A stretch of 57,430 nt of DNA, from assembly GCA_026713825.1 (NCBI GenBank), contig JAPONS010000042.1, forward strand, positions 1 to 57,430, in the 5' to 3' direction. Both the position numbers and the translations under genes were made by a program. This DNA is from Chloroflexota bacterium (GTDB lineage: Bacteria; Chloroflexota; Dehalococcoidia; Lucifugimonadales; UBA1127). The notes under the pieces are model-generated. The model had not been told where the DNA came from, ran no database searches, and was given only the letters and a program-made list of their open reading frames with translations. How positions within the stretch are numbered: position 1 is the stretch's first letter; each line of letters opens with the position of its first letter. Positions 20,045-29,990 of this stretch are shown in pieces.

Positions 20045-21292
20045 CTACTCGTGCCGCAGCGCCTCGATGGGGTGCAGCCGCGCCGCCTGCATCGCCGGGT
20101 AGATGCCGAAGAACAGCCCGATGGCCCCCGACACCGCAGTCGCAATAATCGCAATGTCGCCGCTGAAAACCATGTTCAGCGCCTGCCCGCCAAGCTCCAC
20201 GTCGTCGAAGAAGTACGTGAACCCATACCCCAGCGCCACGCCGATGATGCCGCCCGTCAGGCTCAGCAGCACCGCCTCCACCAGGAACTGCGAGAGGATG
20301 TCGCGCCGCTTCGCCCCCATCGCCTTCCGAATGCCGATCTCCCGCGTTCGCTCCGTCACTGACACCAGCATGATGTTCATGATGCCGATGCCGCCCACCA
20401 GCAGCGCAATGCTCGCAATCGCGCCTAGGAAGATGACGAAGGTCTGCGTGGTCTCCTCCAGCGTCTCGATGGTCTCCACCTGGCTGGTGACCGTGAAATC
20501 GTCCTCGTCCGTGATGCGGTGGCGCAGGCGCAGGATGTTGCTGATCTGCTCCGTCGCCGCGTCGCTCACGTCCTCGCTCGCAATCTGGACGTTGATGTTC
20601 TGCACGGTGATCTCGCCGCCTGCCGTGCGCTGCGCCCCCAGCCGGTAGTACGCCGTCGACACCGGCACAAGAATGCGGTCGTCCTGGTTGCCGAAACCCG
20701 TCCCGCCCTTGGGCTCTAGCAGGCCGATGACCTCGAACGGCCGCCCTCCGATCTTGATCGTGTGACCCACCGGGTGCCGCAGTCCGAACAGCTCCTCCGC
20801 CGTCTCCGACGCCAGCACCGCCACCTGCGACCGCCGCGCGACGTCTGCGTCCGAGATCGACCGGCCGTCCGCCAGTTCGTACGCCCGCACAGGCAGGTAC
20901 GAGGGCGTGACGCCGACCACCGTCGTGTTGGTGTTCTCCCGCTCGAAGACCACCTGCGACCGCGTGCTCGTCTCCGGCGCCACGTCCACCACGTAAGACG
21001 CCAACGCCGGGTCCATCAGCGCCTCAGAGTCCTCCAGCGTCAGCGTCGCCGCACTGCCCGCCGCCCCCGCAAAGCCGAATGCGCTCGTGCTCGCCCCCGG
21101 CCGCACAAACAGCAGGTTCGTCCCCAGCGACTGGATGCGCGCCGTAATCGTCTCCTGCGCCCCGTTGCCGATGGCCGTCAGCGCGATCACCGCCGTCACG
21201 CCGATGATGATGCCCAGCAGCGTCAGCCCCGACCTCAGCTTGTTCGAGTTCAGCGCGTCCAGCGCCGTCAGGAGCGTCGTAAGCGGCGTCAT
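20045..21292 (-). CDS. MacB/FtsX-type ABC transporter permease
   Basis: Protein of 415 residues. A first membrane segment lies at about 18-40 (L-R-S-G-L-T-L-L-G-I-I-I-G-V). A periplasmic MacB-type domain of about 230 residues follows. Three segments lie near the C-terminus, with G-G-I-G-I-M-N-I-M-L-V-S-V and R-E-I-G-I-R-K-A-M-G, the standard FtsX/MacB signature. It pairs with the ATPase encoded just upstream (ATGA overlap) and the adaptor before that. Likely a mechanotransmission exporter of a lipophilic compound or peptide from the outer leaflet. Confidence 0.93.
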   Translation of the reverse strand: MTPLTTLLTALDALNSNKLRSGLTLLGIIIGVTAVIALTAIGNGAQETITARIQSLGTNLLFVRPGASTSAFGFAGAAGSAATLTLEDSEALMDPALASYVVDVAPETSTRSQVVFERENTNTTVVGVTPSYLPVRAYELADGRSISDADVARRSQVAVLASETAEELFGLRHPVGHTIKIGGRPFEVIGLLEPKGGTGFGNQDDRILVPVSTAYYRLGAQRTAGGEITVQNINVQIASEDVSDAATEQISNILRLRHRITDEDDFTVTSQVETIETLEETTQTFVIFLGAIASIALLVGGIGIMNIMLVSVTERTREIGIRKAMGAKRRDILSQFLVEAVLLSLTGGIIGVALGYGFTYFFDDVELGGQALNMVFSGDIAIIATAVSGAIGLFFGIYPAMQAARLHPIEALRHE

Positions 21293-24228: not shown

Positions 24229-24858
24229 CTAGCCGGCGCCCACGCCCTCCTGCAGCACCCGGTCCATCACCTGCTTGAAGAAGTCGTACGGGTGTGCGCC
24301 GGTGAAGAGGTAACGGCCGATGGTAAAGGCCGGGATGCCGTTGATGCCGTAGCTGATCGCCTGTTGGTAGCTCTCCTGCACGGCCTCGGCGTACGTGCGC
24401 TTCTGCAGTGCCTCCTCCAGCCCACGCGGGTCCAGCCCGACCTCCTCCGCGACAGCCGTAAGCACCTCGGTCTTCTCGATGTCCTCGCCGCGCTCCCACA
24501 GCGCGCGGAAGCACGCGTGGTGGAAGGGCATCTCCAACCCCATCGCCTTGGCATACTCCGTCGCCTCCAGCGCGGGCACCGTGTACGGCGTGTGCGGGCT
24601 GCGCCGCATGATGAAGCCGGCCTCTTGGGCGTAGGTGCGAAGGGGCTCGTTCAGATCGCCGCCCGGTTGCTCGCCCGGCCGAGGCTGCCGCTCCCTGCCG
24701 CCCGGCGGGATGTCCGGCCGAAGGAAGAACGCGCGCGTCTCTATCTCGACGGGATACTCATCCTGGAGCTTGGTCAGCCTGTCCAGGCCGATGTAGCACC
24801 ACGGTCAGATGTAGTCCGTCCAGACCGTAACCGGAATCGTCTGCGCTTCGGTGGACAT
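24229..24858 (-). CDS. DsbA/FrnE-like thiol oxidoreductase, putative selenoprotein with in-frame UGA
   Basis: A full-length DsbA-family (FrnE-like) frame of 209 residues runs from ATG at 24858 (AAGGGGGG upstream) to 24229. It contains one in-frame TGA at codon 18 (24807-24805). The surrounding residues are W-T-D-Y-I-(TGA)-P-W-C-Y-I-G, where relatives have C-P-W-C-Y-I-G, so the TGA replaces exactly the first redox cysteine. The rest is intact and conserved, including F-F-L-R-P, G-L-E-M-P-F-H, G-I-N-G-I-P-A-F and D-F-F-K-Q-V-M near the end. This fits a selenocysteine U-x-x-C active site rather than decay. A downstream hairpin supports it. An independent restart at the ATG at 24609 would lack the active site. 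A Cys to stop mutation is the main alternative. Cytoplasmic, since no signal peptide is seen. Confidence 0.8.
24764..24801 (-). promoter_or_regulatory. Putative bacterial SECIS stem-loop in the DsbA/FrnE-like gene
   Basis: It begins three bases after the TGA, on the mRNA strand. From the outside in there are UGG/CCA, a U-U mismatch, GCU/AGC, a 3x3 internal loop, and a 7-bp stem UCGGCCU/AGGCUGA. The apical loop is GGAC (24784-24781). The loop starts 20 nt after the UGA and begins with GG, which fits the known bacterial SECIS pattern of a G-starting loop about 16-37 nt downstream. I folded it by eye. Confidence 0.7.
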
Positions 24859-24883
24859 GGCAGCCCCCCTTAACTTTCGCGCA

Positions 24884-24950: not shown

Positions 24951-24992
24951 TTGCAGAGACGAACGTTTGGCGTTTACTAGTTGAGGTTTGCT

Positions 24993-25349
24993 GTGCCCCT
25001 TTACGACTACTTGTGCCGAAGCTGCAATCATAAGTTTGAGCTCAGGCAGGGATTCGACGCTGACACAATGACGGACTGCCCTCAGTGCGGGCAGTTGGCA
25101 GACCGTCAGATCAGCTTGGTGCCCGTCATCTTCAAGGGTAGCGGCTGGTACGTGAACGACTACGGCAAGAAGAAGAGCACCCTCGGCAACGGCGACGCGC
25201 CGTCCTCTGACGACGGCCCTTCCACCAGCGATGGCGACGGCCACGGCCACTCCCACGACCACGGCCATTCCCACAGCCACGGCGGGCACTCCCACGATCA
25301 CGGCGCCCCTGCAGCCGCCTCGTCCGAGTCTTCCGGCTCGGACGGCTAA
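24993..25349 (+). CDS. FmdB-type zinc-ribbon protein with a His-rich tail
   Basis: Protein of 118 residues. The N-terminal zinc ribbon has Y-D-Y-L-C-R-S-C, then D-C-P-Q-C-G, the two CxxC pairs typical of the FmdB/regulatory zinc-ribbon family. The middle has I-F-K-G-S-G-W-Y, also typical. The C-terminal ~30 residues are a histidine-rich H-G-H-S-H-D-H-G run, likely metal binding. GTG start with TGAGG seven bases upstream. It probably cotranscribes with dtd, ten bases downstream. Confidence 0.85.
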   Translation: MPLYDYLCRSCNHKFELRQGFDADTMTDCPQCGQLADRQISLVPVIFKGSGWYVNDYGKKKSTLGNGDAPSSDDGPSTSDGDGHGHSHDHGHSHSHGGHSHDHGAPAAASSESSGSDG

Positions 25350-28083: not shown

Positions 28084-29622
28084 TTAGTCGGCCTGCTTCA
28101 TGAACACCGTGTGGCGCAGCCACGCCTCCGATGTCTCCGGGAAGTCCGTCCGAAAATGCGCGCCGCGGCTCTCCTGCCGCACCAGCGCCGATTCTGCCAT
28201 CAGTCTACCCAGCGTCACCATGTTGGCAAGCTCCCGGTCGCCCCGGTCGCCGCCCTCCGGCGCCGACGTCTCCCACGCCGAGAACACCCCCGCGGCCTCC
28301 TCCAACCCCTCGCGCGAGCGGATGATGCCGACGTTGCTCCAGTTGAGCGCCTGCAGCCCCTCGATCGACGGCGTGCCCGCGGCGTCCGAGGGCTCGGCCT
28401 CCAGCGCGTAGACCCCCTCCGGCCGGGGCCCCGACCACCCGCCCTCCAGCGAGCGCCGTACAACCCGCTGCCCAAACACCACCGTCTCCAACAGCGAGTT
28501 GCTCGCAAGCCGGTTCGCCCCGTGCAGCCCCGTGCACGCGACCTCGCCGCACGCGTACAGCCCCGGCAGCGTCGTCTCCCCGTCCGTGTTCGTCAGCACG
28601 CCGCCCATCATGTAGTGCGCCGCCGGCGACACCGGTATCGGGTCGCGAGTGATGTCGAGCCCGTGCGTCAGGCACGTCTTGTAGATGCTTGGGAACCGCG
28701 CGGCCACCATCTCCGATGACAGGTGCGTCGCGTCCAGCGCCACGTGCCCCGCGCCCGTGCGCCGCATCTCCGCCAGCAGCGACCGCGACACCACGTCCCG
28801 CGGCGCCAGGTCCCCCTGCGAGTGATAGCCCGTCATGAACGCCTCGCCGCCAGCGTTCCGCAGCACAGCTCCCTCGCCGCGCATGGCTTCCGTGATGAGG
28901 AACGGCGGCGCGCCCGGCAGCCGCAGCGCCGTCGGGTGGAACTGGTAGAACTCCATGTCCATGACCGCCGCGCCCGCCTGGTACGCCAGCGCGACCCCGT
29001 CACCCGTCGTGACCTCGGGGTTGGTGGTGTAGCGGTAGAGCCGCCCCGCGCCGCCCGTCGCCAGTATCGTGTGCGCCGCCAGGTACTCGACCTCGTCGCC
29101 CTCGCCGTTCACGAGCCCCGCGACGCCGACGACCCGCCCGTCCTCGACCAGCAGCCGCGACGTCGTCGTGTACTCCTGCACGTGAATCCGCGAGTGGTGC
29201 GCCAGCGACGACAGCGTCAGCTCGATCCGAGCCCCCGTCGCGTCGCCCCCCGCGTGCAGCACCCGGGGCATCCGGTGCGCCGCCTCGCGACCCAGCGCCA
29301 CCTCCCCGTCCGCCGTGTCGAAGATGACCCCAAGCCGCACCAGCTCCGAGATCGCCTGCGGCCCCTGCTCTGCCAGAATGCGAGCCGCCTCCTCGTTGCA
29401 CAACCCAGCCCCCGCCGCCAGCGTGTCCGCGAAGTGGTAGTTGGGCGAGTCCTCCGGCCCCACAGCCGCCGCAATCCCACCCTGCGCATACTGCGTGTTG
29501 CAGTCAGCGATGCCGCCCTTCGTAAGAATCAGCACGCTCCCAAACTCCACAGCCAGCAGCGCCGAGTACAACCCAGCAATCCCGCTCCCAATCACAATGT
29601 AGTCATATCGCTGCGTGCTCAT
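28084..29622 (-). CDS. nadB: L-aspartate oxidase
   Basis: Protein of 512 residues. FAD-binding G-S-G-I-A-G-L-Y-S-A at the N-terminus, Q-F-H-P-T-A-L and G-E-V-A-C-T-G-L-H-G-A-N-R-L in the catalytic core. It oxidizes aspartate to iminoaspartate for quinolinate synthesis by NadA (encoded further upstream at 31313-32536). A GGGAAG ribosome site precedes the ATG at 29622. A diverged duplicate of its first 24 codons lies 340 bases upstream. Confidence 0.95.
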   Translation of the reverse strand: MSTQRYDYIVIGSGIAGLYSALLAVEFGSVLILTKGGIADCNTQYAQGGIAAAVGPEDSPNYHFADTLAAGAGLCNEEAARILAEQGPQAISELVRLGVIFDTADGEVALGREAAHRMPRVLHAGGDATGARIELTLSSLAHHSRIHVQEYTTTSRLLVEDGRVVGVAGLVNGEGDEVEYLAAHTILATGGAGRLYRYTTNPEVTTGDGVALAYQAGAAVMDMEFYQFHPTALRLPGAPPFLITEAMRGEGAVLRNAGGEAFMTGYHSQGDLAPRDVVSRSLLAEMRRTGAGHVALDATHLSSEMVAARFPSIYKTCLTHGLDITRDPIPVSPAAHYMMGGVLTNTDGETTLPGLYACGEVACTGLHGANRLASNSLLETVVFGQRVVRRSLEGGWSGPRPEGVYALEAEPSDAAGTPSIEGLQALNWSNVGIIRSREGLEEAAGVFSAWETSAPEGGDRGDRELANMVTLGRLMAESALVRQESRGAHFRTDFPETSEAWLRHTVFMKQAD

Positions 29623-29718
29623 GTCTTCCCAGGTCCTCTACACCAGCTCACTGTTCGCCTAGAGCCCGCCGAAGCCTGTTCCGATGTTCTCGAAGGGGGC
29701 ACCCCGCACAACCCCACC

Positions 29719-29887
29719 GTCATACCGGCGAATGCCGGTATCCAGACCCTCCGCCCCCAACACCCTCCGCCGACAGCCGTTCGTGCTGAGGGAAATCGAA
29801 GCATGAACGGGGGCGCGACAGTGCCCACCCGCCTGACCACAAAGCCTTCCGCGCGCCCCATAGGGGCGACCCTTGTGGCCGCCCGAT
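29719..29887. repeat. Dispersed repeats between nadB and its duplicated start
   Basis: Contains one ACCGGCGAATGCCGGT palindrome (29719-29745), one CGTTCGTGCT...AGCATGAACG hairpin (29778-29809) and one TAGGGGCGACCCTTGTGG element (about 29860-29887). They separate intact nadB from the nadB-like fragment. I see no other gene between 29623 and 29990. Confidence 0.75.
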
Positions 29888-29889
29888 CC

Positions 29890-29963
29890 CCCGCCAACAC
29901 CGCCGAGTACAACCCGGCAATCCCGCTGCCAACGACGATGTAGTCATACTGTTGTGTAGTCAT
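29890..29963 (-). pseudogene. Duplicated 5' fragment of nadB
   Basis: Reads from ATG at 29963 as M-T-T-Q-Q-Y-D-Y-I-V-V-G-S-G-I-A-G-L-Y, nearly the same as the nadB start. About 14 of 72 bases differ, and most changes are synonymous. After ~24 codons the homology ends in a dispersed repeat. The protein is only a remnant (frame continues into repeat translation). The synonymous pattern suggests it came from a different working nadB allele, not from recent decay. Confidence 0.8.
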
Positions 29964-29990
29964 GGCGAACGCTCTTTGTCCGTGCAAATG

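Follow-up and report, generated by a model that had tools for sequence, protein, structure and literature searches.

The locus under study raises the question of whether an in-frame UGA in a gene for a DsbA/FrnE-like protein is decoded as selenocysteine, and whether the hairpin that follows it directly is a bacterial SECIS element. The window, i.e., the whole stretch of DNA that was analysed, comprises 57,430 nt of a draft Chloroflexota genome (2.64 Mb, 114 contigs, 96% complete), which is probably a metagenome bin. The nearest named relatives by protein identity are both Chloroflexota bins, namely L050 ("uncultured Dehalococcoidia bacterium", 94%) and L049 ("Chloroflexota bacterium isolate RHO3_bin_79", 89%). 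The gene and its elements are as follows.

24229-24858, minus strand: DsbA/FrnE-like gene, 209 codons plus stop, with one UGA read as selenocysteine (translation with TGA = U; PF01323; FrnE fold)
24864-24871, minus strand: probable ribosome-binding site AAGGGGGG, before the ATG at 24858 (read from the sequence)
24805-24807, minus strand: in-frame UGA, codon 18, predicted selenocysteine, the U of U-P-W-C (the aligned codon is UGA or Cys in homologues)
24796-24798, minus strand: UGC codon of Cys21, the second active-site residue (invariant column of a 52-protein alignment)
24331-24333, minus strand: codon of Pro176 (invariant column P176 of the 52-protein alignment)

The UGA is the single in-frame UGA of the gene and occupies the place of the first Cys in a CPWC active site. 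The protein matched the PF01323 domain with an E value of 6.4e-33 (114.6 bits vs. a gathering score of 25.6), and its active site reads UPWC (U-x-x-C). In a PDB search with the family profile, FrnE of D. radiodurans ranked first (E about 3e-50), and it was also the best fold match (TM 0.80) of the AlphaFold2 model, which had a pLDDT of 94.2. The reading frame is unbroken 3′ of the UGA, and the protein was confidently folded by AlphaFold2. Residue 18 (with UGA read as Cys), Pro19, Cys21, Pro176, and Gly187 were invariant in 52 aligned proteins; we take Pro176 to be the cis-Pro position of the thioredoxin fold. The enzyme is probably cytosolic, because no signal peptide is evident by eye. Membership in NF041057 (thioredoxin-like (seleno)lipoprotein) was rejected, as the NCBIfam score of 45.7 was far short of the cut-off of 190. 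A plus-strand ORF that runs antisense across the gene (24292-24873) was taken for a probable shadow ORF.

Two observations concern the neighbourhood. The divergent neighbour (24981-25349, plus strand) is an FmdB-type zinc-ribbon gene (TIGR02605) with Cys codons in this copy; an FmdB family protein is listed as a UxxU selenoprotein in other organisms in an excerpt of PMC13188914. Further away, an ORF upstream of nadB (29619-29987, minus strand; nadB at 28084-29622) copies the nadB start (YDYIV.GSGIAGLYSA) and then has unrelated sequence; it resembles a nadB duplication that is partial and broken.

The hairpin 3′ of the UGA consists of the following elements.

24764-24801, minus strand: bacterial SECIS element, whole hairpin with the outer pairs UGG/CCA and GCU/AGC (MFE structure; bSECIS constraints)
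24785-24791, minus strand: 5′ arm of the 7-bp upper stem, UCGGCCU (fold; the stem covaries in homologues)
24781-24784, minus strand: apical loop GGAC, 20 nt 3′ of the UGA (fold)
24774-24780, minus strand: 3′ arm of the upper stem, AGGCUGA, one base closer to the UGA than in the main homologue group

The preliminary description of this DNA had drawn the hairpin by eye, and it turned out to be right to the base: RNAfold of 24807-24764 returned the UGG/CCA and GCU/AGC pairs, the UCGGCCU/AGGCUGA stem, and the GGAC loop, and the distance of 20 nt between UGA and loop was confirmed by the fold. An MFE fold lacking the stem had been named as an observation that would speak against the proposal, but the MFE structure contains the stem; in a longer stretch of 121 nt, the upper hairpin was present in the MFE and centroid structures alike.

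The hairpin was first compared with chance for this gene alone, in several ways. The energy of 24807-24764 (44 nt including the UGA) was −16.7 kcal/mol, and 8 of 200 dinucleotide shuffles were equally stable. The stability of the 121-nt stretch was not unusual in comparison to dinucleotide shuffles (z −1.13; 25 of 200 as good). Synonymous recodings of the same peptide yielded p values of 0.018 (42 nt) and 0.044 (30 nt) for this gene alone. The hairpin of the single gene is thus slightly beyond chance, with p values of about 0.02–0.13. As judged from the sequences of the homologues, it is far more than chance once these are compared. A scan of the window with Rfam at gathering thresholds yielded one tRNA and nothing else.

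The hairpin was compared with the model of bacterial SECIS elements summarized in excerpts of PMC13188914 (Fig. 2 legend), which demands a loop of 3–9 nt with an upper stem of 4–16 bp, a G among the first two loop nucleotides, a spacing of 16–37 nt, and an MFE of −7.5 kcal/mol or lower. With a loop of 4 nt that starts with GG, a stem of 7 bp, a spacing of 20 nt, and an energy of −16.5 to −17.3 kcal/mol, it is in agreement with all four constraints as given in these excerpts. A covariance model, R1, which was built without the genus of the window, ranked the site first with 38.3 bits, both within the window and genome-wide (next match 15.9). R1 was rejected as proof of SECIS function: Cys homologues reached up to 44.4 bits, and the model mostly reads conserved codons. 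The poor separation of UGA and Cys genes is explained by the fact that R1 also scores conserved coding sequence. A second match in the window (51424-51388) lacks a UGA where the model expects one and appears to be a chance match.

Next, the codon aligned with the UGA was analysed in 86 homologous loci, which comprise all 83 matches in 77 of 197 genomes of the class and three further loci. It was TGA in 54 cases, TGC in 24, and TGT in 8; no other sense codon and neither TAA nor TAG was found at this position among the 86 loci. In an order-level search, 86 of 197 genomes had matches, and the further loci read from the order had TGA at the aligned codon in 29 of 29 cases. In a sample of the phylum, 54 of 301 genomes had matches at 1e-25, and 49 of the 55 matches contained at least one in-frame TGA (anywhere in the match). 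A tree built from 95 proteins requires that Sec and Cys were exchanged 16 times, at least 7 of these on well-supported branches, and the two states are therefore interleaved. In four genomes, a UGA gene and a Cys paralogue occur together (L054/L062 in G070, L029/L085 in G090, L036/L103 in G154, and L102/L101 in G022). A few matches are peculiar. In the order genomes G288, G346, and G267, an in-frame TAA lies within the match in addition to the TGA, possibly because the match extends past the gene end or because of decay. Outside of the class, the homologue matches of G611, G618, G465, and G394 each contain two in-frame TGA codons, one of which may be the terminal stop or, possibly, a second Sec codon. 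In summary, UGA-containing DsbA/FrnE enzymes are frequent in one class of Chloroflexota, and the Sec and Cys forms are often swapped there, which offers a natural set for testing the requirements of bacterial SECIS elements.

The homologues were used to analyse whether selection acts on the stem. Alignment A1 contained 50 UGA loci from outside the window's genus, and pairing was quantified for an 8-bp stem (columns 17-24 with 28-35), i.e., for the upper stem. In A1, 88.0% of the cells were paired, in comparison to 74.0 ± 1.3 in shuffles, and none of 500 shuffles was as high. Changes on both sides were found in 41 cells vs. 12.0 in shuffles. When the 3′ partner was slid, 27.5–53.3% were paired, a comparison in which the tested stem is favoured since it was drawn from folds of these sequences. 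Two other counts on A1 were not unusual: double changes occurred in 5 pairs, a number reached by 136 of 500 shuffles, and there were 14 further pair types, reached by 128 of 500. RNAalifold recovered the five innermost pairs only. For 32 Cys loci, pairing in the same stem did not exceed that of shuffles (62.5% vs. 63.1), of which 329 of 500 reached at least this level.

The folding energies gave a similar picture. In comparison to 1000 synonymous recodings, the mean z of the hairpin energy was −1.93 for 81 UGA genes and −0.13 for 31 Cys genes (p 1.3e-11), and when family means were used (36 UGA vs. 17 Cys families), p was 1.1e-6. Of the UGA genes, 63 of 81 can form 7 or more stem pairs without a bulge and with a G at the start of the loop, vs. 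4 of 31 Cys genes. After correction for phylogeny, the test is underpowered, with only 7 usable pairs; these point to an association of UGA with a strong hairpin, by about 4 to 1 for stems of at least 7 bp (median p 0.375) and by 4–5 to 0 for stems of at least 8 bp (p 0.06–0.13). UGA homologues without any hairpin had also been named in the preliminary description as counterevidence. When a hairpin was required to have 4 or more contiguous pairs, a G at loop position 1 or 2, and a spacing of 16–37 nt, one was present in 77 of 81 UGA genes; in the other 4, this strict count, which allows no bulge, yielded none. These 4 belong to the 18 of 81 UGA homologues with a bulge-free stem shorter than 7 bp. 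In three UGA homologues, L095, L067, and L100, the hairpin is weak or unclear in the usual place, and these might possibly be atypical SECIS elements.

Third positions, which had been proposed as a check, were more conserved in the hairpin (64%) than in the rest of the gene (49%). These values were obtained with codons for the same amino acid in the window's gene and 14 relatives, with the 13 codons after the UGA counted as inside: 84 of 131 were identical inside and 706 of 1454 outside (Fisher p 7e-4, whereby the pairs are not independent). Across all pairs, the identity inside and outside was 0.60 and 0.48 for UGA loci and 0.55 and 0.49 for Cys loci. The difference at third positions is present but smaller than the folding signal.

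These results bear on the possibility that the UGA encodes Sec, but that the conserved hairpin is chiefly a general mRNA structure or a pausing element and not a SelB site. The SelB site is a prediction, and a few UGA homologues have weak hairpins, as would be expected in that case; the stem signal, however, is confined to UGA genes, and position, loop G, and stem length all fit the bSECIS constraints, so we regard a general structure as very improbable. Still less probable is that the UGA arose by faulty sequencing or by a nonsense mutation in a gene undergoing decay, with the hairpin as a side effect of codon conservation. The fragmented draft assembly, probably binned from a metagenome, and the modest single-gene statistics would be compatible with that explanation, but it is refuted by the conservation of UGA at the same codon in 54 of 86 loci; moreover, the frame behind it is intact, and the Cys homologues encode nearly the same peptide without any stem signal.

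The genome was also inspected for the machinery for selenocysteine insertion. SelB was found above the curated cut-off, with its C-terminal part included, selA was present (1.8e-163), and a tRNA-Sec with the anticodon UCA scored above the gathering score. The selD gene (L105, G000:C17:26857-27777) also contains a single in-frame TGA, at the U of HCAG-U-AAKF, and a hairpin with a small GGA loop lies 3′ of it. The genome therefore very probably encodes two or more selenoproteins, SelD among them. In the class sample, selA was found in 45 of 51 UGA genomes vs. 8 of 26 Cys-only genomes (Fisher p 5e-7). All six UGA genomes without a selA match have a tRNA-Sec above the gathering score, so that selA or tRNA-Sec is present in 51 of 51 UGA genomes of this sample, while none of the 4 tested Cys-only genomes without selA (of 18) had a tRNA-Sec. 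A genome-wide reading of UGA as another residue (Trp, Gly, or Cys), which would make a SECIS element unneeded and might be suggested by the alternation of UGA with Cys codons, has next to no probability in view of tRNA-Sec, selA, selB, and selD in the genome, of a stem covariation that tracks UGA, and of the use of UGA as a stop here as well, since TGA ends 2 of 9 examined genes of the window, one of them via an ATGA overlap with the start of the next gene (21289-21292).

Taken together, it is very probable that the hairpin is a bacterial SECIS element and that the UGA is decoded as selenocysteine in a DsbA/FrnE-type oxidoreductase. The SECIS assignment of the preliminary description is supported by the four constraints, by the full Sec machinery, and by a stem that covaries in UGA but not in Cys homologues. 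The gene, the UGA position, the hairpin, the covariation, and the presence of the machinery were computed, while binding by this SelB, insertion efficiency, and dithiol/selenol oxidoreductase action are modelled on the E. coli paradigm. By analogy, SelB with Sec-tRNA(Sec) would bind the apical stem-loop on the mRNA and deliver selenocysteine at the UGA 20 nt upstream of the loop. The ribosome would not stop, because of this delivery, but would pass the UGA, and a U-P-W-C enzyme of the DsbA/FrnE type would be made, which might act as a dithiol/selenol oxidoreductase. Gene calling with table 11 would leave a fragment of 126 aa (24229-24609) without the active site, and a first look at the raw sequence had picked out a real recoding site.

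The register of the stem differs between homologues. In the class-wide register, the window's gene would form only 3 of 8 pairs (by eye on A1); with the 3′ arm one base closer to the UGA, it forms seven pairs and the GGAC loop. The same shifted stem is found in L110 (94% identity), L112 (71%), and L113 (69%), and the shift by one base, with seven pairs retained, prevails in the genus. L111 (89%) has kept the standard register, with a G in the 5′ arm where the others have C, and L115 has a third stem arrangement. The register shifts accompany a change of the acidic residue of RVE/RVD to Thr or Met. In the remote pairs L065/L079 and L089/L091, the loops (GUC and GGUC) are located 5 and 12 nt farther from the UGA. 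On our reading, the structure persists while the peptide and the register shift. The sequence of these events is a reconstruction, and it concerns only a handful of lineages. It might be that throughout the Chloroflexota a residue change in the 3′ arm (RVE/RVD to RLD, RLT, or RLM) is compensated either synonymously in the opposite arm or by a slide of the whole 3′ arm by one base, whereas UGA, loop G, and spacing stay, a generalization to which we give slightly less than even confidence. If true, the register of a SECIS element would be free to slip as long as loop identity and distance are held.

DsbA-like selenoproteins are known from several compilations, of which excerpts were available. 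Nine sequences (COG2761, UxxC) are listed in PMC1088965 (Sargasso Sea 2005), 63 sequences of DsbA 1 in PMC2398784, and 45 DsbA-like selenoproteins in 41 organisms in PMC5029168; "DsbA-like protein form 1" is listed in PMC13188914 (2026 review), and further listings are found in PMC1794560 and PMC9312934. In the excerpts of PMC1088965, PMC2398784, PMC5029168, and PMC13188914, Chloroflexota are not mentioned for form 1. For Dehalogenimonas, an excerpt of PMC4918011 describes a selenophosphate synthase and a formate dehydrogenase with in-frame UGA. The abundance in the class and the shifted stem were not found described in these excerpts, which came from literature with few subscription journals.

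The hairpin resembles the bSECIS model and its E. coli prototype fdhF in being a coding-region hairpin just 3′ of the UGA, with a small loop starting with GG, a spacing of 20 nt, and a 7-bp upper stem. It differs from the fdhF hairpin in its GGAC loop and in its 3′ arm, which is one base off the main register of the family. The fdhF loop is presumably GGU, which we take to be the common start in E. coli. With regard to the protein, FrnE of Deinococcus radiodurans (PDB 5co3, 5cnw) and SCO1869 (3gl5) were the best profile and fold matches in the PDB and share the same fold; both presumably have Cys where the window's protein has Sec. With DsbA-like selenoprotein form 1, as far as the excerpts describe it, the protein shares the Pfam family (PF01323, COG2761) and the UxxC motif; the likeness to published members is by family and motif, and the difference is its occurrence here in many Chloroflexota genomes. 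DsbA-like UxxC selenoproteins are thus already in print, and the locus represents a known kind of recoding without a new mechanism, of which it is a solid, well-supported new example.
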